From positions 62,001 to 126,000 of the forward strand of contig JAFGSK010000044.1 in the NCBI GenBank assembly GCA_016934635.1: a stretch of 64,000 nt of DNA, given 5' to 3'. Under the pieces are notes generated by a model. The model saw nothing but the letters and a program-made list of their open reading frames with translations. It made no database searches and was not told the DNA's origin. Source of the DNA: Caldifarciminota bacterium (GTDB lineage Bacteria; Hydrothermota; Tepidihabitantia; B3-TA06). How positions within the stretch are numbered: position 1 is the stretch's first letter; each line of letters starts with the position of its first letter. Positions 17,113 through 54,035 of the stretch are shown here, piece after piece. The translations under genes were made by a program, and so were the position numbers.

Positions 17113-18684
17113 TTATTGCATTACAACTACCTTTTTGCTTTGAGCCCCGAACGGAGTACTCACCCTCACGAAGTACACCCCTGCCGGAGCGTCGAAGGTA
17201 AATGTGTATTCGCCTTCGTTCAGGATTTCGTTGCAGAGGTTTTCAAAAAGCCTTCCAGAGGCATCGAAGACATCTACCCTGGTCATGCCGGATTGCGGCA
17301 GTCCAAGCTGAACCGAAACCATATCTTGGAATAGAGATTTCGTCTCAAGTACAATTGGTTCAGGGGGGAATTCCTCGGGTTCGGTGACAGAGGAATAACC
17401 CCTCATTTCCAGGGTAGCGTCGCCCAGAAGGCACATCCCCATGAACCAGGCCTTTGCCGAACCGAAGTCCGGGAAAAAAGTCAACCAGTAGTTGGTCCAT
17501 ACCCGGAACGCATCCCCCCAGGAGTATCCTTCGGCGAGAGGTTGATTGAAAAAAGAAAAATGAAGCATCGAACCGGTCTTGGTCGAGCCGACCACTGCGA
17601 GTCCGTTCCCGAAGAGGTTATATACGCTCCCCATGCAATTGGTCTCCACCCATCGGCAGTTAGAGCAGGCAAAAAGGTTGTAGAAACCGAACTTGGGATC
17701 TGAGACACATATCTCCCAGTTGTAAACCATGTCGGCATATCCGATGTTAGCCTTTTGAAAGTAATGCGCTTCAGGACTCGAATGAACGCATACCGTCAGA
17801 AAAAGCCCTTGCTCTTTAATACGAGACCTGTAATCTTTCGCATCGGTGATGAATGTATCGCGAATCTCTTCGTAGTCTTCAGTGACAAGGTTCATCTCAG
17901 TATCATAGTAACCTTGGGACCAATCCTGATCTATGTAAAACAGGCCCTTTGACGGCAATCTGAACGTCTCTTGCCGGTAGCCGTGAACCCTTTCAAAGTA
18001 ATCGGCGTATATATCCAACTCTGAATCATATGAAATACTGGAGGCGTCTATCCTGGCCACCCAGATCTCGGCTTCCAGGGGACCGGTATGCGAATCAAAG
18101 ACGCCGTCCGAGCCTTGATTCATTGGACCGGGACCTGCATATACCGAATCGTCTCTCCACTCACCGTCGAGATCTGAAAGATACAGATCGCACGGAAACT
18201 CCTCGTATTGCTCTTCGTCAAGGTCAAATATTCCGTTGTCGTTCCAATCGTCGTTGAGCTGGAACCATGGAACCGGCTGGTCTCCCACAAGCACGGCACC
18301 AACAAGTCCTGAGTTAAGCCTTTCAGCGAGGTACGCTCTCAGCGCCTCGACCGTACCGGCCGTGGAAAAGATACTCATTTCCACCGAGTAACCGGCGTCC
18401 TGGAGGTCTTGGGTGTATTGATCCAGATGAAACTTGAGGTTTCGAGCGATGTCCGGCGTAACAACGACGGCTATCAGGCCGTCGCTGACGGACCTTGTTC
18501 GGGAAGCCCGCCGGTAAATCACGCTGGGACCGCCCTTAAGGCTCCCGGTTTCAGGATGCAGCGAACGCCATTCACTGTAGGTCACGTAATCCGGATCAGA
18601 CCTCAAGTCCCTGGTCAACTTGACGTCCGACTCGGCCCAACTGGAAGTCATAAACAATATAATGAATATTATAATTTTCTTCAT
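17113..18684 (-). CDS. Gingipain-like C25 family cysteine peptidase with sorting domain
   Basis: The 523-residue protein has a signal peptide, a pro-like segment, and a C25-type catalytic domain: VGAVLVGDQPVPWF, the acidic YLSDLDGEW segment, a histidine at about residue 300 (VCVHSSPEAH) and a cysteine at about 339 (LFACSNCRW), then AVVGSTKTGS. The His-Cys spacing fits gingipain and clan CD peptidases. The last 75 residues are a type IX sorting domain (VDVFDASGRLFE and a terminal AGVYFVRVSTPFG). It is therefore a predicted secreted or surface peptidase. It lies 12 bp after nadE on one message, an unexpected pairing. A ribosome site AAAGGAAAA precedes the ATG. Confidence 0.85.
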   Translation of the reverse strand: MKKIIIFIILFMTSSWAESDVKLTRDLRSDPDYVTYSEWRSLHPETGSLKGGPSVIYRRASRTRSVSDGLIAVVVTPDIARNLKFHLDQYTQDLQDAGYSVEMSIFSTAGTVEALRAYLAERLNSGLVGAVLVGDQPVPWFQLNDDWNDNGIFDLDEEQYEEFPCDLYLSDLDGEWRDDSVYAGPGPMNQGSDGVFDSHTGPLEAEIWVARIDASSISYDSELDIYADYFERVHGYRQETFRLPSKGLFYIDQDWSQGYYDTEMNLVTEDYEEIRDTFITDAKDYRSRIKEQGLFLTVCVHSSPEAHYFQKANIGYADMVYNWEICVSDPKFGFYNLFACSNCRWVETNCMGSVYNLFGNGLAVVGSTKTGSMLHFSFFNQPLAEGYSWGDAFRVWTNYWLTFFPDFGSAKAWFMGMCLLGDATLEMRGYSSVTEPEEFPPEPIVLETKSLFQDMVSVQLGLPQSGMTRVDVFDASGRLFENLCNEILNEGEYTFTFDAPAGVYFVRVSTPFGAQSKKVVVMQ

Positions 18685-20394: not shown

Positions 20395-20401
20395 AATCCT
20401 G

Positions 20402-20429
20402 AGTATAGATAGTGTTCAATGACTGTCAA
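20402..20429 (-). promoter_or_regulatory. Leaderless promoter of nadE
   Basis: On the minus strand TTGACA (20424-20429) and TATACT (20402-20407) are spaced by 16 bp, with 7 nt to the GTG. Confidence 0.65.
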
Positions 20430-20577
20430 CACGCCGAGGGCGAGCGACAGCCATAAGGATCTGCCTGGAATCATCTGCAACGTGATTGGATACGGCGCTT
20501 CCCTCATATTACGTCCCCAACATCCGTCTTAACCAAGGGAATTTCTGGATTCTTACCGACTGAACCGGAATCCGGGA

Positions 20578-22965
20578 TCAATTACCTACCGGCTTATCCC
20601 ACTCGTATATAGTACAGGCTGGCAATGCTCGCTTGAGCCGTGATAGTCCTTCCTGACCCATGTCCTCAATAATGAATCCATCCAAATAAAGACGCTTCAG
20701 TTTCGGAAGATTAGCAAGTTCCAACAATGTCTCCCAGTCGTAGTAGAAGTGATACGATTCTGAAATATCCAAAACCTCAAGATTAGTTAGTTCTGATAGG
20801 GCTTTTACTTCTTCATCATCAAGTCCATTGTTGTGGATATACAGGTTTCTCAGATTCTTCAATTTAGCAATCTGGATGATCCCTTTCAAACCGATGTCGT
20901 TATTTGAAAGATTCAGTTTTTCCAGATTGTCTAATCCGCCAATCCAGCGTATGTCGGAAGAGTAAAGATCGTTATTGTTTAGATCAAGAACCCTCAAGTT
21001 CTTCAGGTTGGCGAGCCAGGCAAGACCTTCACCCCGGGTGTTTATTTCTTCGAGGTAAAGTTCTTCGATACTCGAAAGCGACGCAAGCTGCCTGAGACCT
21101 TCATCTGATATATACGTATTACTGAGGTTAAGCGACCTAAGATTCTCGATTTTTGCCAGATGTTTAATCGCGTTGTCCGTAATCAGGTTTTCAGACAGAT
21201 CAAGGTAAGACAAGTGAGGGAGGTTGGACAAATACTTCAACTGACCGTTCCAGATAAAGCCGGACGAGAGATCCAAACCTCTCAAATTCACGAAGCTTGC
21301 GATATGCTTGAGCGTGCCTAAACCGAGAAGCGAATTCGTTAACCCAAGTTCCCTTAAGTAAGGTGTCTGGTAAAGATACTCGATACCTTGTCCGGTTATT
21401 TTAGATCCGTCAAGATTAAAAGCCCTTAACCCAGGCATGTCATTTAACCATCTCAATTCATCGTCAGAGACGGCGTCGGTTTTCAAATTTAGAACCCTGA
21501 GTTCCTTAACGCTTCCTGCAGTGATTGTTCGTAGAGGGTCATAGTCGTAAATCTCATTGATTCCCAGGCTTATCAACTTAAGATAAGGATAATCCAGGTC
21601 CGGAACCGATGTTAAACTGTTTATTTGTCTTGCATGATAATACATTAATGAATCACCATCCCTGCTCATTATAGTAAGAAAGAATCTTTCCTGCGCCTTT
21701 TCGACGTAATTAACCGTTATTATCGCTTGTGCAATTGTATCGGGCAGCGGAAAATCGAATCCTTCTTTATAGTTGACTTTTACTGCGGGCCTACCGTTGA
21801 CTTCAACCACATAAACACCTTCGGATTCAGTATATGTCTCGTAATCGATCTTTTCTTCACCTTGCCAGATATAGGGCAGATTCCCGAACCATAAGAAATC
21901 CTTACCCGGCTCTCTGCCTGACATGAATTCGGTTGATACAGTCAACCCCTCCTGTTTGATAACCGTTTTCTCTACACCTGATTCGGGTAAGAGCGGCAGT
22001 TCTGGTCCCTTCGGCGCTTTAGGCAGCAGGATGCTCACGGTCAGGAGCAAAGCGAGCGCCACGAAGGCCGAAATACCCAAAAGAACCTGAAGGAACGGAG
22101 AAAAGGATACTCTACTTGCAGAGCTTTCTGAGCCGTAGTCTTCACTTAAAACGTCTGCAGACGCATGTCTGATCTCTGGGATGCGGTGGCGCTTCAGGCG
22201 CTTCGCTATCCGCACGGCCTCCCTTGCGTCAACCTCCCTCAGTGCCATAAGAAGCTCGGCGCACAGATGAGGACGCCTTTCCGGTTCTCGAAGCTCGGAT
22301 CTCAGCATGGATAGACATGTACTCCTGTCTAAAAGATGCAAGGTCGACAAGGAACGCAAGGCATCCACCCTTGCCTGTGTCGGTGATCCGGTATCCTTGA
22401 GTTTGCCGATGAGTTCCTTGCGTTCTCGCTCCATAGGAAAATGGGTATTGCAGTGGGGGCAAATCTCTGCATCCAATGGAGCATGATGACCGCAGTATGG
22501 GCATTGCTTGGAAGACCCGGCTCTCCTTCTCTCTTCTCCACCACGGACCGACTTTATAACACCCATTATTATCCCTTTGATGATAGCTGAGACTATCATG
22601 AACCCTATATACAAAGCACCTGCAGTACCGACCATTGCAACCATCATGATAATATACGTATTCGGGAACAATTCATAGGTAGCTGTCAGGAGTATAAAAA
22701 TACCGGCAAACACGACGGCGAATACAGACCAGATAATCGCAGTAGGGTTCGCTCCCTTCTTCCTGAACAGGTACAGTAAAGCGGTAATAGACGCCAAAGC
22801 CAGGAATCCATAGATTACGAATTTGACCCATTCGTAATCCCAGTCGATGTAGGAAAAGAAATTCATGTGAGCAAGCCAGAGAAGTATCCCGCCCCAGATT
22901 GAAATCCATACACCACCTCTTACGATCGACTCAATTACGCTCAGGTTCTTGGATTTTGCGGCCAA
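20578..22965 (-). CDS. Membrane protein with zinc ribbon, HEAT-like and leucine-rich-repeat domains
   Basis: The 795-residue protein has, in order, four membrane helices (to about residue 140), a double zinc ribbon (CPYCGHHAPLDAEICPHCN, about 153-171), a helical segment of HEAT type (about 185-270), one more membrane helix (about 285-305), a strand-rich region, and at least a dozen leucine-rich repeats (about 445-780; for example LRGLDLSSG and LSYLDLSENLITDNAIKHLA). The start is a TTG with AGGAGG five bases upstream. I know no protein with this full order. It is probably a sensor or scaffold with a cytoplasmic ribbon/HEAT part and an external LRR part. A disrupted sibling without the LRR part lies just upstream. 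Confidence 0.75.
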   Translation of the reverse strand: MAAKSKNLSVIESIVRGGVWISIWGGILLWLAHMNFFSYIDWDYEWVKFVIYGFLALASITALLYLFRKKGANPTAIIWSVFAVVFAGIFILLTATYELFPNTYIIMMVAMVGTAGALYIGFMIVSAIIKGIIMGVIKSVRGGEERRRAGSSKQCPYCGHHAPLDAEICPHCNTHFPMERERKELIGKLKDTGSPTQARVDALRSLSTLHLLDRSTCLSMLRSELREPERRPHLCAELLMALREVDAREAVRIAKRLKRHRIPEIRHASADVLSEDYGSESSASRVSFSPFLQVLLGISAFVALALLLTVSILLPKAPKGPELPLLPESGVEKTVIKQEGLTVSTEFMSGREPGKDFLWFGNLPYIWQGEEKIDYETYTESEGVYVVEVNGRPAVKVNYKEGFDFPLPDTIAQAIITVNYVEKAQERFFLTIMSRDGDSLMYYHARQINSLTSVPDLDYPYLKLISLGINEIYDYDPLRTITAGSVKELRVLNLKTDAVSDDELRWLNDMPGLRAFNLDGSKITGQGIEYLYQTPYLRELGLTNSLLGLGTLKHIASFVNLRGLDLSSGFIWNGQLKYLSNLPHLSYLDLSENLITDNAIKHLAKIENLRSLNLSNTYISDEGLRQLASLSSIEELYLEEINTRGEGLAWLANLKNLRVLDLNNNDLYSSDIRWIGGLDNLEKLNLSNNDIGLKGIIQIAKLKNLRNLYIHNNGLDDEEVKALSELTNLEVLDISESYHFYYDWETLLELANLPKLKRLYLDGFIIEDMGQEGLSRLKRALPACTIYEWDKPVGN

Positions 22966-22986
22966 CTCTTCCTCCTAGCTTACGAG

Positions 22987-23014
22987 ATACTACACTGAAA
23001 ACACCTGTCGTCAA
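22987..23014 (-). promoter_or_regulatory. Promoter of the zinc-ribbon/LRR gene
   Basis: On the minus strand TTGACG (23009-23014) and TAGTAT (22987-22992) with a 16-bp spacer. Confidence 0.55.
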
Positions 23015-23198
23015 GTTATCAATAAACGAATCAATCGTTCTCTTAGCTGTATCGGGCTCGCACTCGTTTTACTGTCTCACAACCTTCACGTTTTCAATCG
23101 ACTGTTAAAATTACTCAAGGTGATACGTAGATCGGACACCCGCGCCTTTTGCCTAGACACCGCTATTAACGCAAGGTTCCGAGATCGGGAAACGAGGA

Positions 23199-24194
23199 CT
23201 ATTCAAGTATCTCCTCCGCCGCCTTGCGCACTACTGCGAACTTGTCATTCTTCATCCTTTCTGCAAACTGCAATGCCTTCCTGCGATCCTGCCTTGCCAG
23301 CGCTCGCAGCAATACTACCATCAAATCCGGACCGGACATAGGGTTCCCGGCCTCCTCTTCCAGCACCTTTATGATCTCCCTCTTGTCAAGGCTGCCGGAT
23401 TCTAAAAGGTAGTTGAATGCCGTGACGCGGTGAGAAGTCGGTGCCGTCTTTTCTTGAAATGTTCATTTAGCAAGTTCGTTGGTCCTCGTTGCGGGAAAGG
23501 TCTGCCCACATATATCACAATTTTTTTCAGCGAACTCCATCTCGTATCCACACTACGGGCATCTCTTGGTGAATTCCTTGACCTTAGGTCTAAGAAAGTT
23601 TTTTGTGAAGTAATTGGAGTATATTGTCCAAACAGCCAGGTTAATCCCTGCCATAACCAGCCAGTAAACCCCAATATCGTCGATGATAATCAATTCCTCG
23701 TAGGAAAGCTCCACGGTACGGTTCAAGATGAAGCCGACTATGCCTCCTGCAAGCAGGGCAACCATCACAATCCCGACCCTTCTATTCATGTATATTGACA
23801 GCCTGCCTCTCCTTTTCTTGCGGAAAAGATAACTGGCGATCATCCAGCCAATAACCATGGCCGGAAAAACGAAAGCGAATACTTTCTCGATGGTTTCAAG
23901 GAAATAAAACCGCTGGAACATCAAAAATAGCAGCCCTCCCTCTCCCGCAAAACAGGACAGGGCGGCAACCCAGATCACCGCCATCCTTGCCTATCTTACG
24001 CGGGCGATCAATAATCCCAGCAGTCCAAGATAAAAGGCGATTGCGGCGACATTGATCAGGATTGAGCATGTTTCCTTCCAGCCCAAAGAAAGCAAAGGAC
24101 GCACCACAACGACCAAACCCCACAATCCCCAAGCCACCATTTCGATTACTGTGATTTGAGGTTCACTGGGTTTTTGCTCTTTCATCTCAGCCAA
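23199..24194 (-). pseudogene. Membrane/zinc-ribbon/HEAT-like protein interrupted by three in-frame stops
   Basis: A single reading frame of 332 codons runs from TTG 24194 (AGAGG upstream) to TAG 23199 and is broken at TAG 23991, TAG 23553 and TGA 23463, with no frameshift. Read through, it gives two membrane helices, then about four more, then a double zinc ribbon whose second residue pair is split by the second stop (CP-stop-CG, then NCDICGQTF), then a HEAT-like domain (VTAFNYLLESGSLDKREIIK, RKALQFAERMKNDKF). The same order is found in the first 270 residues of the neighbour at 20578. An ATG at 23984 could restart translation after the first stop, so that boundary might be two real genes. 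Either the locus is decaying by substitutions only, or the stops are read through. Confidence 0.7.
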
Positions 24195-24211
24195 TCGTTC
24201 CTCTTTCCCGA

Positions 24212-24239
24212 AGTATACCGCCTAAACATATGTTGTCAA
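24212..24239 (-). promoter_or_regulatory. Promoter of the stop-interrupted membrane gene
   Basis: On the minus strand TTGACA (24234-24239) and TATACT (24212-24217) are spaced by 16 bp; the promoter is intact although the gene is not. Confidence 0.65.
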
Positions 24240-24470
24240 CCGGATTCATCAGGAGAATCCCTGCATTATTCGAGAGTTGGGATAGGTTGATGAGGCCATA
24301 AGTCTCAGTCGCTCAATCGATTGTGAAAAGAACACGGAATTACACCGTATTTAACGGAATAAAATACACCAAATTCGAGTATAAGCTTAAGGTAGTCTGG
24401 TAAGTGTAGGCTTCCAAAAATCAACAAATGATACCTTAAACGTCGGGTTTGCCCGAAAGGAGGATAAGTC

Positions 24471-25280
24471 ATGAGGTATCCAATCATCTTCTTACTGATA
24501 GGCGGACTTACTGTGTCTGTCTTTCCCCAAGAAATCTTCAGAACCAATCTCGAAGGTGTGGCTGTGCAGAACTTTACAGCAAGTCAGCCCATCGACGGTT
24601 TCAGCGTGGAAGGCCCGGACGAAGAGGGCTACGTGTATCTGGTGGCTCATTCAGGCTGCGAGTCCGGCAAGATCGTCAGAAACCGCTGGCAGGGCACCGG
24701 GTTTCAACCATTGAGCATGTCCGAGGGCGAGTATCTGACAGGCTTCGATGTACGAGGACCTGATGAGAACGGCTACGTATATCTTAACGCTCTGGGATCA
24801 GAAGGTACCTCAGGTGATATTCTCAGGAGTCTGTGGTCCAGAATCTCATTTTGTCCTTTACCGGAATCATTGCTGGAAGGCATAACGAGCCTTAAAGTCT
24901 CAGGTCCTGACGAGGAAGGCTGTGTATATCTGAGTGCAGGTAATTCTGTAATTGATCCTGACGCTTCCAATCAAACTCGGATTGAATATCCCGAATTCGC
25001 ACTCGGAGAGATCCCTAATCCTGTGACCGGCGTTATCCGCATCTCGTACTCGCTGGCTGAATCTTGCCGTACAAACATCGTCGTCTACGATCCGTCGGGA
25101 AGGCTTGTGGTGACCCTGGTTGACGGCGAAATACCGACCGGGAATCACTCCTTGACCTGGAACGGGATTAACGAGTCCGGGCAACTTGTGAACTCCGGCG
25201 TGTATTTCGTGAAGATGAACGCCGTCGATAAGGCAACCGGTGGGTTCACAGCCACCCGAAAACTTGTCCTGGTAAAGTAA
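24471..25280 (+). CDS. Secreted three-repeat protein with C-terminal sorting domain
   Basis: The 269-residue product has a signal peptide and three copies of a repeat of about 48 residues whose core reads GFSVEGPDEEGYVYL, GFDVRGPDENGYVYL and LKVSGPDEEGCVYL (about residues 45, 92 and 140). The last 90 residues are a FlgD/type IX sorting-like domain (NIVVYDPSGRLVVTLVDG, NSGVYFVKMNAVD, TRKLVLVK). It is probably a surface protein; the binding partner is unknown. AAAGGAGG precedes the ATG. It is followed after 26 bp by the two head-repeat proteins, with which it may be co-transcribed. Confidence 0.75.
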   Translation: MRYPIIFLLIGGLTVSVFPQEIFRTNLEGVAVQNFTASQPIDGFSVEGPDEEGYVYLVAHSGCESGKIVRNRWQGTGFQPLSMSEGEYLTGFDVRGPDENGYVYLNALGSEGTSGDILRSLWSRISFCPLPESLLEGITSLKVSGPDEEGCVYLSAGNSVIDPDASNQTRIEYPEFALGEIPNPVTGVIRISYSLAESCRTNIVVYDPSGRLVVTLVDGEIPTGNHSLTWNGINESGQLVNSGVYFVKMNAVDKATGGFTATRKLVLVK

Positions 25281-25306
25281 CAGATCAAAAACAAAGAGAG
25301 GATAAA

Positions 25307-26782
25307 GTGAAAAAAAGATTAGTATTAATTACTGCCTGCATACTTGTTCTTGCAGGAGGGTTTTTTGCCGCAGCTGGCAACGAAACTGAGACAGCACCCG
25401 TATCTCAATCAGGTTGGATCGAAGGCACCCACCCGGTGGAAACCGAGGCATCCGAAGGCGGAAAAATAATGACCGTCGACACCTGGTGGCGTACGTCCGG
25501 TAACGCAGAAACCACTCCGGGTACACACTTCCTCGGAACCACTGACAGCACCGCTCTGGAGATAAAGGTCGACGAGGAAAGAGCGATGCGTATAGAGCCC
25601 GCCTCCTACTCACCTAATATTGTAGGAGGGTCTTCCTGGAACAGCGTGGGTTCCGGATCGTACGGTAACGTTATCAGCGGCGGAGGAAGGTATTTCTACC
25701 CGAACCAGATAACGGACGGCGCGAATTATGCCGCCATCGGTGGAGGTTACCGGAATTCCGCTAGCGACTGGTGTACAACGATCGGCGGTGGATACTACAA
25801 CAGTGCAAGCGATCAAGAGGCGACTGTCGGCGGTGGATTTCAAAACAACGCAAGCGGCAATTACAGCGCCGTTGGAGGAGGTCTTTATAATTCAGCGAGC
25901 GGCCCTCGGAGTATGGTCAGCGGCGGTCAGGATAACCTGGCGAGTGGATCTTTTTCCGTTGTTGGAGGCGGCGAAGATAATACTGCAAGTGAGAGGTACG
26001 CCACAGTCGGCGGAGGTTTGGACAATATAGCAAGCGGCGATAACACTACGGTCGGCGGCGGCTACAGCAATGAAGCGAACTATGATTATTCAACCGTCGG
26101 CGGAGGTTTCGATAACACCTCAAGCGGTTATGCCGCCACCGTTGCCGGAGGAAGAAACAATACGGCAAGCGGTTATGCGGCTGTGATCCCCGGAGGCTAC
26201 AACAACCAGGCGTCGGGTTCATACTCCTTTGCAGCAGGATACCGGGCGAAAGCCAACTCCAACGGTTCCTTTGTCTGGGGTGACTACCAGGCTTCCGATA
26301 TCGTATCGACCGGGAGTAACGAGTTTATTGTTCGAGCCAATGGCGGCATATGGTTCGGCACCAACTCCTCGCCGTCCACGCCTACAGATCGTTTCATAAA
26401 CACCTCGACCGGAGCCTACCTTTCTTCGGGCGGAACCTGGACCAACGCATCTGACCGGAATCTCAAGGAAGGGTTTCAGCCGGTCGACGAGGTAGAGATC
26501 CTCGCCAAGGTAGCCGAGCTTCCCATTACCTCCTGGAACTACAAGTCCGAAGACCCATCCGTCACTCACATAGGCCCGGTGGCCCAGGATTTCCACGCAG
26601 CATTCAATCTGGGCAATGACGATCGGTCCATCTCCACGGTTGACGCCTCGGGAGTTGCCCTGGTGTCCATCCAGGCATTGTACAAGGAGAACTTGGAACT
26701 CAAGAGTCAACTTGAAACCCAAGAGAAGTATCTGGAAGACCTCGAGGCACGTCTTGAAACCCTTGAGGAAATCTCAAAGTGA
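25307..26782 (+). CDS. Surface fibre protein: YadA-like head repeats and S74 chaperone end (copy 1)
   Basis: The 491-residue protein has a signal peptide, a conserved WIEGTHPVETEASEGGK segment, then about thirteen head repeats of 14-16 residues of the type GGGYxNxASGxYSxV (about residues 140-305), as in trimeric YadA/Hep-Hag heads. A transition region leads to a C-terminal domain with SDRNLKEGFQPVD (about 382) and HIGPVAQDFHAAF, the signature of the endosialidase-type intramolecular chaperone (peptidase S74), which trimerises and cuts itself off before the Ser-Asp pair. The end is a coiled coil of about 35 residues. No membrane anchor barrel is present, so this is a secreted trimeric fibre and not a classic autotransporter. 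A close paralogue follows after 10 bp. Confidence 0.85.
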   Translation: MKKRLVLITACILVLAGGFFAAAGNETETAPVSQSGWIEGTHPVETEASEGGKIMTVDTWWRTSGNAETTPGTHFLGTTDSTALEIKVDEERAMRIEPASYSPNIVGGSSWNSVGSGSYGNVISGGGRYFYPNQITDGANYAAIGGGYRNSASDWCTTIGGGYYNSASDQEATVGGGFQNNASGNYSAVGGGLYNSASGPRSMVSGGQDNLASGSFSVVGGGEDNTASERYATVGGGLDNIASGDNTTVGGGYSNEANYDYSTVGGGFDNTSSGYAATVAGGRNNTASGYAAVIPGGYNNQASGSYSFAAGYRAKANSNGSFVWGDYQASDIVSTGSNEFIVRANGGIWFGTNSSPSTPTDRFINTSTGAYLSSGGTWTNASDRNLKEGFQPVDEVEILAKVAELPITSWNYKSEDPSVTHIGPVAQDFHAAFNLGNDDRSISTVDASGVALVSIQALYKENLELKSQLETQEKYLEDLEARLETLEEISK

Positions 26783-26792
26783 GGAGGCAAAA

Positions 26793-28385
26793 ATGAAACC
26801 GAAACTTTCAACAATATTCGCCTTGATCCTGATACTTGCTGGCGGACTTCCCGCCGCATCAGGTATGGGATCGGACGAAACGGTTCCGATGATTCAATCC
26901 GGATGGATTGAAGGCACCAGACCTGTGGAAACCGAGGCGTCCGAAGGCGGAAAGATAATGACCGTCGACACCTGGTGGCGAACAGCCGGCAACTCGGAAA
27001 CCGTCCCTGGAACTCATTTCTTGGGAACAATCGACAACAAGGCGTTGGAGATAAGAGTCAATAATCAGCGGGCATTCCGGCTGGAACCGAACTACTCCGC
27101 ACCCAACGTTATCGGCGGGTACTCGGGTAACTCGATAGCCTCGGGCAAATGCGGTTCGACCATTTCAGGCGGCGGCGTTCAATACGGAGTTAACGCTATC
27201 AACGATAACTACAGCACTATCGGCGGGGGAAAAGGCAACTCGACCGACAGTATTTATGCGACGGTATCCGGCGGCTGGGTTAATATTGCGGGTGGATACG
27301 GTGCATCGGTAGGAGGTGGTTCATCCAACAGTGCGGATGCACGCTACTGTGTAGTGTCCGGCGGGTACGACAACGAGGCTGACAGCAACTACGCTTCGAT
27401 CGGCGGCGGATACCACAATCTGGCGAATGGTCAATACGCCAGGGTCGATGGCGGCAGGAACAATACCGCAGATTCTCAATACTGTTTTGTCGGTGCCGGC
27501 TACTCCAATCTGGCAAGCGACCGTTACGCGACCATAGGAGGCGGCTACGACAATTCTGCGGAAGCGGATTACACCTTCATAGGAGGCGGCTATATTAACA
27601 AAGCCAGAGGCAACTATGCTGTAGCTTCCGGCGGAAGATTCAGTTATGCCGACGGCGATTACTCGGTAGTGGCCGGAGGCAACGGAAACGACGCCGTCGG
27701 CAACTATTCCGTAGTATGCGGCGGATTCTCCAACGAAGCAACGGGCGGCTACAGTACTATCGGCGGGGGATATTCTTGTGAAGCAAGTGGAATTCACGCA
27801 ACAGTACCCGGAGGGAACGACAACGAAGCCAATGGGTATTCCTCCTTTGCCGCAGGATATAAGGCCAGGGCTAACCATAGCGGTAGTTTTGTGTGGGCAG
27901 ATTACCAAAACGGCGAGGAGATTGCTTCTACCGGAAACGACCAGTTCATCGTTAGAGCTGAGGGTGGCGTATGGTTCGGCACACACTCTTCACCGAGCTG
28001 GCCCACAGGCAGCTTCATAGCAACCTCCACCGGTGCCTACCTGTCCTCGGGCGGCACCTGGACCAACGCCTCTGACCGCAACCTCAAGGAAGGTTTCCAA
28101 CCGGTCGACCAGGACGACATCCTGGAAAAAGTCGCCGAGCTTCCCATAACCTCCTGGAACTACAAGTCGGAAAACAACTCGGTCAAGCACATCGGGCCCG
28201 TGGCCCAGGACTTCCACGCCGCGTTCGGTGTCGGTACGGATGACAAGTCTATCTCAACGATTGATGCAGACGGCGTGGCATTGGTGGCTATCCAGGCGCT
28301 TTACAAGGAGCTTAAGGAAAAGGACGCCGAGATTGCGGAACTAACTGCTCGTCTGGAAGCTTTGGAGGCATCACAAAACAAGTAA
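26793..28385 (+). CDS. Surface fibre protein: YadA-like head repeats and S74 chaperone end (copy 2)
   Basis: The 530-residue paralogue has the same plan: signal peptide, WIEGTRPVETEASEGGK, about fifteen head repeats (for example VSGGYDNEADSNYASIGGG), then SDRNLKEGFQPVD near residue 427, HIGPVAQDFHAAF and a terminal coiled coil. Start and end are nearly identical to copy 1 while the repeat block differs in length and sequence, as expected of a binding region under variation. The start at 26793 is chosen because GAGGAGG stands before it and a signal peptide follows; the open frame upstream overlaps copy 1 and is a shadow. A strong terminator follows 20 bp after the stop. Confidence 0.87.
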   Translation: MKPKLSTIFALILILAGGLPAASGMGSDETVPMIQSGWIEGTRPVETEASEGGKIMTVDTWWRTAGNSETVPGTHFLGTIDNKALEIRVNNQRAFRLEPNYSAPNVIGGYSGNSIASGKCGSTISGGGVQYGVNAINDNYSTIGGGKGNSTDSIYATVSGGWVNIAGGYGASVGGGSSNSADARYCVVSGGYDNEADSNYASIGGGYHNLANGQYARVDGGRNNTADSQYCFVGAGYSNLASDRYATIGGGYDNSAEADYTFIGGGYINKARGNYAVASGGRFSYADGDYSVVAGGNGNDAVGNYSVVCGGFSNEATGGYSTIGGGYSCEASGIHATVPGGNDNEANGYSSFAAGYKARANHSGSFVWADYQNGEEIASTGNDQFIVRAEGGVWFGTHSSPSWPTGSFIATSTGAYLSSGGTWTNASDRNLKEGFQPVDQDDILEKVAELPITSWNYKSENNSVKHIGPVAQDFHAAFGVGTDDKSISTIDADGVALVAIQALYKELKEKDAEIAELTARLEALEASQNK

Positions 28386-28405
28386 TTACACCCCCGAATA
28401 ACACA

Positions 28406-28433
28406 AAGGCTGGTCTGGGACCAGCCTTTTTTT
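28406..28433 (+). terminator. Intrinsic terminator after the fibre genes
   Basis: AAGGCTGGTC and GACCAGCCTT pair perfectly around TGG, followed by a T-run on the plus strand. Confidence 0.9.
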
Positions 28434-28448
28434 AATAAATTGAACTCG

Positions 28449-30179
28449 CTATCTGAGAAGAACCAACTTCTCAGTCAGCACAAAACCCTCAGTTTCCAGA
28501 CGGCAGAAATACAGTCCGGGCGCAGCCTGAGCTGAGTTCCAAGATACCGTGTATGTCCCGTCAAGTTGAGTACCGGTGAATATGGTCGTGACTTTACGAC
28601 CGTCTGTTGTGTAGATGGAAAGGTTAACCCGCGACTCACGCGGGATCGTATACCTGATTTGATAATTATCCTCAGTGGAAATCGACATAATATCCAGTCG
28701 GGTAACCGAACCTTTCCTAACCGGTGATTCGGCAATACCCGAGACCGCGTTTGAATATCCTGACCAGTTCATGCACTCGTCTCGAGCCTTAACCATGAAT
28801 ACGCCTGTGTAACCGGGTTCGAGCACGAAGGTCTCCTTTGAGCCCGGGGAGGAGGGTGCAGGCGGATTGGAAACGCTTTCGGCCTTGTTGTACCACCAGT
28901 CGAACGTGTCTGTCCCAACGGGTTCATTAGAGTAGCGGACCTCGTAGAGATAGGCGTTCCCCTGGGTGCCGTCGTCGCCCGGCGCTGTCCAGGAAAGCTT
29001 AATGCCTCCATTAACCTCTATTTCGAGGTCTGTGATGTCTGCGGGAGGTTCATCGTCGTCTGCGAAGATGTCACCCTGGGTTATACCGTACATAGACGGG
29101 CGAAGTTTCATGCCCGCGGTCGTCCCGATCGTATCGCCCGTTATGCGGTGCACCGCGATAGCCCGGCAATCGTAATGGCTGTAAATATCGGAATTAAAAA
29201 CGTAATAACTGCCGCTGAAGTAATAACCTTCACGAACCTTGGTGGCTGATGTCGTACTCCACTCCATGGGATCAAGGTAGACGACCTGTCCCGAAGGAGG
29301 GTCAAGTGTTATCTCAGCATCGGGTATGGGTGTACCGTTCAGGTTGAGTACCCTGCCGAAGACGAATGCCTTTAATGTATCCTGCTCGAACCCGAACGTA
29401 TCCCTGGCATATTCTTTTAAGTACTCCCAATCTGCGCGTTCAATCAGAAAAACAGGTTCCACTTCCAGACCCTCGTCATCCGGGATCACGAAATGACAGT
29501 AGGTGGCAAGGTGACTTGTATCTATCGAAGCATACGCTTCAGTGGTGCCTTCGAAGTTTGCGACTATGTTCAGATGACCTGTGGATGTGCCTGTGTATCT
29601 GTAAAATCCGTACTCGTTGGTGGTGGTGTTGGCGATTCCACAGAGATGGACCGACACACCCGATCCGATGGGGTTCTGGGTTCTCCAGTTCACGAGTGTC
29701 CCCTGTACCGTACCGACAGGCAGTTTCGGGGCGTTAATATTGACTAATCCAGCGGCCTTGAGATGGAGAACACTGCATTGCTTCCAACCCTCGGCAGGAT
29801 GATCGAAGAGAGAGTTTTCCAGAGCTACTCTCACGGTGTCGCCCGTTTCAGGGTTAATTATGTAAAAATCGCTGATCTCAAAGTCACTCGATTCGTTGAA
29901 TGTGTTAAGGAACTTATCTTTGTTAGTCATAGCTTCGAAGCTGTAGCCGACGATCGACTTCTCGAAGGAATATCGGGCGGTTGTAGCCACGGTTAAAGAT
30001 TTGTTGCTGTTGATATCCTTGAGTACTATCCGAACTTGCAGATCCTTGGGGCGTTCCAGTCCTTCAACAGCCAGATACACCTGGAATTTCAGGTACGGGG
30101 TCATCCCGTCGCACCTCTGACCTAATGATAGTAGCGCTGCTGCGAGCAAGGTGCAAAACATTATGAGCTTTCTTCTCAC
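28449..30179 (-). CDS. Secreted protein with carboxypeptidase-regulatory-like and Fn3-like domains and sorting domain
   Basis: The product (576 residues) has a signal peptide ending near LLSLGQRCDG, a strand-rich N-terminal domain, two carboxypeptidase-regulatory-like stretches (about 150-210, GTLVNWRTQNPIGSGVSVHL; about 260-330, VFGRVLNLNGTPIPDAEI), a fibronectin-III-like domain (about 380-470, DLEIEVNGGIKLSWTAPGDD) and a type IX-like sorting domain at the end (VNLSIYTTDGRKVTTIF, GLYFCRLETEGFVLTEKL). It is probably surface-bound. The start is the GTG at 30179, seven bases after AGGAGG; a longer frame from 30209 would place the ribosome site inside the gene. It has its own promoter, divergent from the gene at 30378. 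Confidence 0.75.
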   Translation of the reverse strand: MRRKLIMFCTLLAAALLSLGQRCDGMTPYLKFQVYLAVEGLERPKDLQVRIVLKDINSNKSLTVATTARYSFEKSIVGYSFEAMTNKDKFLNTFNESSDFEISDFYIINPETGDTVRVALENSLFDHPAEGWKQCSVLHLKAAGLVNINAPKLPVGTVQGTLVNWRTQNPIGSGVSVHLCGIANTTTNEYGFYRYTGTSTGHLNIVANFEGTTEAYASIDTSHLATYCHFVIPDDEGLEVEPVFLIERADWEYLKEYARDTFGFEQDTLKAFVFGRVLNLNGTPIPDAEITLDPPSGQVVYLDPMEWSTTSATKVREGYYFSGSYYVFNSDIYSHYDCRAIAVHRITGDTIGTTAGMKLRPSMYGITQGDIFADDDEPPADITDLEIEVNGGIKLSWTAPGDDGTQGNAYLYEVRYSNEPVGTDTFDWWYNKAESVSNPPAPSSPGSKETFVLEPGYTGVFMVKARDECMNWSGYSNAVSGIAESPVRKGSVTRLDIMSISTEDNYQIRYTIPRESRVNLSIYTTDGRKVTTIFTGTQLDGTYTVSWNSAQAAPGLYFCRLETEGFVLTEKLVLLR

Positions 30180-30209
30180 GGATCTCCTCCTTTGGTTTGG
30201 TTTATCCAA

Positions 30210-53060: not shown

Positions 53061-54035
53061 TCGTGGAAATTTCCACGTTTGATAAAAAGATATTCATTCA
53101 AGCAGCCTTGTCAAGCCCTGACGGCAGAGTATCAGGCATGTTTTCGTAACCCGTCATCTTTCTCATGACACCGAAGGACGACGCTAGCGGAGTAATCTGA
53201 CCTGTAGCGACCAGGCCGTAGAGAAGGGCTAATACCGCTTCTTCCGTAGGCAGAGCGCCTTGGGTCTTTACCCTGCGTCTGAACTCACCATACAACCGCT
53301 CTATCACATTGGTGCTCCGCAAGCTCCTCCACTGGGTATCAGGAAAGTAATAGAAGGTCAGAAGCTCGAACCCTTGAGCCACAATCCCATAAGCTTCTTC
53401 TCTCCCTTTCCGTTAACACCCACAGCCGCAAGAATCGATACCCGCGAACACCGACCAGCTACCCTCACCTTCACGCTGAAACCGTCAAGGTAAAGATAAC
53501 GCATATCCTCCTCAGCCAAAGAGCGTTTGCGCCAGGTCTCGAAGTGTTCCTTGAGTGCGGAGACTATCCGACTCACCGTGCTCGCTGAAAGCTCCGCATT
53601 ACCTAAAAGCGGCCTGAGAGCCTTCTTGATGCGGCGGGTGTTCACCCCGGCAAGATAAAGCTCCATTATCGCAAGGTCGATGTCCCTGGTGCGTCGCTGG
53701 TAACGACCTATAAGGAAGCTCCGCCACTCCTCTTCAGCGCCGTCCTGAGCCTTGATGCGACCGCGAGGCATCTTGAACTCACTGGGACCAAGCGATGTCA
53801 ATATACTACGTTCCTCAGAGCCATGACGGTAGCCCTTGCGGTCATCGCTGCGGGCATAAGGCTCCGCATCCAACGCTGCTCGAAGCTCAGCCCTGAGAAC
53901 CCGCTCCATCGCTGACCTTAATTCATTGCGAAACGCAGCAACCAATGGCTCTTCTTCCTTCTCAAACCGGTTCTTCTCGCTCATGGAAACTCCTTTCTTT
54001 CCTTAGCTCCATTATACTCACTAGAATTTCCACGA
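53061..54035 (-). mobile_element. Internally deleted IS256-type insertion element
   Basis: TCGTGGAAATT at 53061-53071 is repeated in inverted form at 54025-54035 and flanks the remains of a Mutator/IS256 transposase. The span of 975 bp is shorter than a usual element of about 1.3-1.4 kb because the middle of the transposase gene is missing. No target duplication is visible outside the ends. Confidence 0.75.
53098..53984 (-). pseudogene. IS256/Mutator-family transposase, internally deleted
   Basis: The N-terminal 208 residues (MSEKNRFEKEEEPLV, GKMPRGR-type segment, YLAGVNTRRIKKALRPLLG, STVSRIVSALKEHFETWRKR, LYLDGFSVKV with the first catalytic Asp) are joined out of frame near 53358-53382 to the C-terminal 94 residues (FYYFPDTQWRSLRSTNVIER with the catalytic Glu, and EFRRRVKTQGALPTEEAV). 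About 100-150 residues between them, including the second catalytic Asp, are absent. The enzyme cannot be active; the element could only move with a helper. Confidence 0.85.

Follow-up and report, generated by a model that had tools for sequence, protein, structure and literature searches.

Organization of the Stop-Interrupted Frame

The window, that is, the whole stretch of 64,000 nt analysed here, comes from contig C67; the assembly totals 3.33 Mb in 90 contigs and is 90.7% complete. Translation from position 24194 to 23199 revealed a single frame of 331 codons with no frameshift. The in-frame TAG, TAG, and TGA codons described in an earlier note on this DNA were thus confirmed, and the frame was assigned to the minus strand (Table 1). 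The same stretch contains 5-19 stops in each of the other five frames, with codon-usage scores below 0. The four segments of the frame scored 0.087, 0.212, 0.058, and 0.218 per codon, in order, all within the range of the 44 window genes used as the reference (mean 0.17, sd 0.075). Because stops crowd the other five frames and its codon usage is gene-like, the frame is more than a chance opening.

Table 1. Features of the locus, its intact paralogues, and the surrounding block
Feature	Position	Strand	Description
Promoter-like site	24212..24239	-	TTGACA-16-TATACT, consensus match only
ORF 1	23991..24194	-	Starts at TTG behind Shine-Dalgarno site AAAGAGG; 67 codons with two predicted membrane helices; closed by TAG 23991
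First stop	23991-23993	-	In-frame TAG, from translation
ORF 2	23553..23984	-	ATG start, 143 codons, four predicted membrane helices, TAG cuts first CxxC of zinc ribbon
Second stop	23553-23555	-	In-frame TAG, from translation
Remnant, rest of zinc ribbon	23463..23552	-	29 codons, ended by TGA 23463-23465
Third stop	23463-23465	-	In-frame TGA, from translation
Remnant, HEAT-like segment	23199..23462	-	87 codons, ends at TAG 23199, ungapped match to neighbour
Final stop	23199-23201	-	TAG that closes the frame, from translation
Intact neighbour paralogue	20578..22965	-	795 codons: four membrane helices, zinc ribbon, HEAT-like segment, fifth helix, leucine-rich repeats
Intact C18 paralogue	L058:7449-8129		226 codons, three predicted helices
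Intact C7 paralogue	L088:2099-2833		244 codons: helices, zinc ribbon, related tail; reached by profile search
Variable block	20395..28448	no strand	Missing from this position in G001 (L064), a genome of the same genus

The Shine-Dalgarno site of ORF 1, which is either a small gene in its own right or the former N-terminus, lies 5 nt upstream of the TTG at 24194. The promoter had been called intact; 11 of its 12 positions agree with the consensus, but this is a consensus match alone, and the site is better termed promoter-like. At the other end of the frame, the earliest possible in-frame start for the HEAT-like segment is a GTG at 23366.

The read-through frame matched the neighbour (E 2.4e-12) and the open C18 gene (E 3.5e-5), and its last segment alone aligned with the neighbour without gaps (32% identity over 80 residues, E 4.5e-11). 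Membrane helices were predicted by hydropathy in the read-through frame and in the paralogues, and the order of helices, four cysteines, and HEAT-like segment is common to them. The order that had been proposed from the neighbour thus stood. The proposed double zinc ribbon did not: there is one, with four cysteines in two CxxC knuckles, all of which line up in the paralogue alignment. The second stop falls between CP and CG of the first knuckle, exactly as had been read. The zinc-ribbon matches to Pfam were all below the cut-off, and the HEAT label is borrowed from the paralogues, whose own Pfam matches also fall below it.

A Paralogous Family with a Second Broken Member

The family is multi-copy in this genome, with six members seen, at least two of which are broken. 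The C18 gene is followed downstream by two more family members. The first of these is the second broken paralogue (delimited as L058:8164-8709 or L058:8164-8816, the latter equivalent to C18:80163-80815); it has a HEAT-like part that shifts to another frame after about L058:8590, and the member at L058:8817-9314 is without the zinc ribbon. The stops within the C7 and C54 matches were also considered as lesions and rejected, since the former match runs past the end of the open 244-codon paralogue and the latter overruns a short open frame consisting of a helix and a zinc ribbon. To judge by their layout alone, the intact relatives may have a membrane-anchored role in metal and protein binding.

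A search for the family in other genomes of the same taxonomic family yielded nothing beyond one short zinc-ribbon match, and an orthologue search of 40 relatives, 65 class genomes, and the genome_contigs, viral_contigs, and phages sets found none. In other genomes of the class, the profile matched (E 1e-3 to 6e-5) short zinc-ribbon stretches, several of them in MscL-like channels. Proteins from this genome and from genomes of the class (L059:5299-5739, L071, and L072) resemble MscL-type channels and carry a C-terminal zinc ribbon.

Genomic Setting

In G001, the NAD synthase gene and the counterpart of the window gene at 28449-30209 adjoin, 78 bp apart. Here, the same two genes flank 8 kb that hold the neighbour, the stop-bearing frame, and three surface-protein-like genes. 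Because the flanks are adjacent in G001, the 8-kb block is variable within the genus, having been either gained here or lost in G001. The region 25307-28385 comprises two tandem genes that have similar ends and a repeat-rich body in common. Pfam matches in the first of them are to Peptidase_S74 (endosialidase chaperone) and to UspA1 repeats. In the G001 region (L064:2018-2070), the counterpart of the window gene at 17113-18684 extends over two reading frames and is either frameshifted or mis-assembled. A minus-strand open stretch of the window (53107-53370) resembles the C-terminus of a transposase of the mutator type and is a possible insertion-sequence remnant. By inspection of 185 kb of this genome, most other stop-interrupted frames were either shadow frames antisense to genes or ordinary junctions between genes.

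Stop Codon Usage and Suppressor tRNAs

The 44 window genes terminate with TAA (16), TAG (14), and TGA (14), so that neither codon inside the frame is rare as a terminator, in agreement with the earlier note, which had thought a genome-wide code change unlikely. No tRNA with a stop-reading anticodon (CUA or UCA) was present among 42 typed tRNA matches in the genome; the window's own tRNA is a tRNA-Ser. A change of the genetic code was rejected on these two grounds. Selenocysteine was likewise rejected, as the genome search for tRNA-Sec stayed below the cut-off and its best matches coincide with ordinary tRNAs. Among the papers listed by a literature search on recoding in WOR-3, none mentions WOR-3. 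Suppression of the stops, which had been offered as one explanation, gained no support from these results, although at 90.7% completeness the assembly could have missed a suppressor tRNA.

The First Stop as a Possible Gene Boundary

The ATG at 23984 follows the first stop after two codons (six bases) and has an AGG five bases on its 5' side. Four hydrophobic helices precede the zinc ribbon when the frame is read from this ATG, as in the neighbour and the C7 paralogue, and the first cysteine is reached after about 142 residues (about 154 in both the neighbour and the C7 paralogue). Ordinary same-frame junctions of this genome (window 18699, L019, and L089) have an ATG 4-5 codons past the stop. 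The earlier suggestion that the first stop might be a normal boundary is favoured by these findings: with an ATG right after it and a layout from there equal to that of the intact paralogues, it is plausibly ordinary. The odds are about even that it is a natural boundary between two genes and not a third lesion. The second and third stops are probably disabling and the first not, as both lie inside the homologous part from the zinc ribbon to the HEAT-like segment.

Premature Stops without Frameshifts

Neutral substitution was simulated on intact window genes. Three stops within 331 codons required about 0.066 changes per site, and two within 263 codons about 0.052. When the indel/substitution ratio was low to moderate (0.03-0.1, assumed values and not this organism's own), a frame with three stops escaped frameshift with a probability of 0.03-0.23 and one with two stops with a probability of 0.10-0.38; a ratio of 0.2 lowered these to about 0.005 and 0.04, respectively. 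Among the disrupting mutations in pseudogenes of Sodalis symbionts, nonsense mutations account for 16-19% and internal indels for 53% (PMC3499248). Applied by arithmetic, this spectrum gives a probability of no frameshift of roughly 0.02 for three stops and 0.06 for two. Stops without a frameshift are thus mildly uncommon and by themselves no signal, and the pattern is further weakened as a signal because the locus was picked for it. The argument from the lack of indels in 1 kb holds to the extent that the pattern is somewhat unusual, but only mildly so.

Interpretation of the Locus

Taken together, the locus is probably a pseudogene in early decay, belonging to a lineage-specific membrane-protein family of one candidate WOR-3/Stahlbacteria lineage; it looks ordinary, and its stops do not look like a new reading of the code. 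Its homology is recognisable and broken by premature stops, and intact homologues exist, supplied by the paralogues alone (20578, C18, and C7). For decay, homology continues past the stops, three paralogues are intact, another is broken, and the block is absent from this place in G001; in addition, no suppressor tRNA was seen, stop usage is ordinary, the first stop resembles normal same-frame junctions, and position 23366 is the earliest at which the HEAT-like segment could start. Recent decay, the first option of the earlier note, is favoured accordingly. Against it stand the absence of a frameshift and the gene-like codon usage and homology beyond the last premature stop, and an endosymbiont-like lesion spectrum (PMC3499248) would make decay by nonsense mutations only uncommon.

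Proteins of this family would be anchored in the membrane by helices, followed by a four-cysteine zinc ribbon and then a HEAT-like repeat. The locus may be transcribed from its own promoter now, or may have been until recently. Translation would yield two products: a peptide of 67 residues with two helices and, starting at ATG 23984, a protein of 143 residues with four helices that ends within the zinc ribbon. Neither a whole zinc ribbon nor the HEAT-like part would be produced any longer, a loss that is probably recent. This copy could be lost at little cost, since it sits in a variable 8-kb block, an intact paralogue adjoins it, and others exist elsewhere in the genome.

These two shortened proteins could also still be useful, with only the soluble part decayed. 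The promoter-like site, the strong Shine-Dalgarno site of ORF 1, the well-spaced AGG before ATG 23984, and the six-base gap between stop and start are consistent with this reading, as is the varying domain content of the family, one member of which (L058:8817-9314) does without the zinc ribbon. However, a stop that splits CP from CG in the first knuckle for metal binding makes an unlikely functional end, and the truncation looks young because the part downstream keeps a coding-like score (0.218 per codon); we consider continued use unlikely. The stops might instead be assembly errors or the consensus of a minority strain, given that assembly errors underlie many internal-stop pseudogenes in public assemblies (PMC11017572) and that this genome is in 90 contigs. 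The 44 window genes, with 18,357 codons, are nevertheless all open, and it would be odd for two or three separate substitution errors to gather in a single gene within a lineage-specific block, which makes such an artefact decidedly improbable.

Readthrough giving a low level of full-length protein would fit the absence of a frameshift and the frame and coding signal kept to the end, and conserved in-frame stops that bear marks of selection have been reported in bacteria (PMC7918605). We regard it as very unlikely here: no suppressor tRNA was seen, the tRNA-Sec search stayed below the cut-off, small efficiencies multiply over two or three successive stops, and the intact paralogues have no need of readthrough. 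The second stop, moreover, stands in a TAG-T context. TAG-T is a context of efficient termination. Deliberate production of graded forms through leaky stops (two-helix, four-helix, and a rare read-through protein with zinc ribbon and HEAT-like part) would explain the absence of frameshifts, if real, but is extremely improbable. Were readthrough real, it would be remarkable for a single bacterial gene to carry two or three leaky stops when no suppressor tRNA is there, but no evidence here demands readthrough. As a case of decay, the locus has little import beyond annotation: it reveals, in a candidate phylum, a membrane protein family that is small and changes fast, at least 2 of its 6 members being broken.

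Comparison with Known Systems

The frame is close to the intact paralogues (20578-22965, C18, and C7), with which it has membrane helices, a cysteine zinc ribbon, and a HEAT-like segment in common at about 24-30% identity. Unlike it, the paralogues are open frames; the neighbour carries an extra helix and leucine-rich repeats, and the C18 protein has three predicted helices. The suspected-readthrough stops of other bacteria (PMC7918605) resemble those found here in being in-frame, with the frame kept on both sides, but those cases rest on conservation, and here no orthologue was found to share the stops. Like the nonsense pseudogenes of Sodalis (PMC3499248), the locus has premature in-frame stops, a gene-like remnant frame, a dispensable copy, and intact relatives; in Sodalis, however, indels dominate, whereas this locus has stops only, with no indel in about 1 kb.
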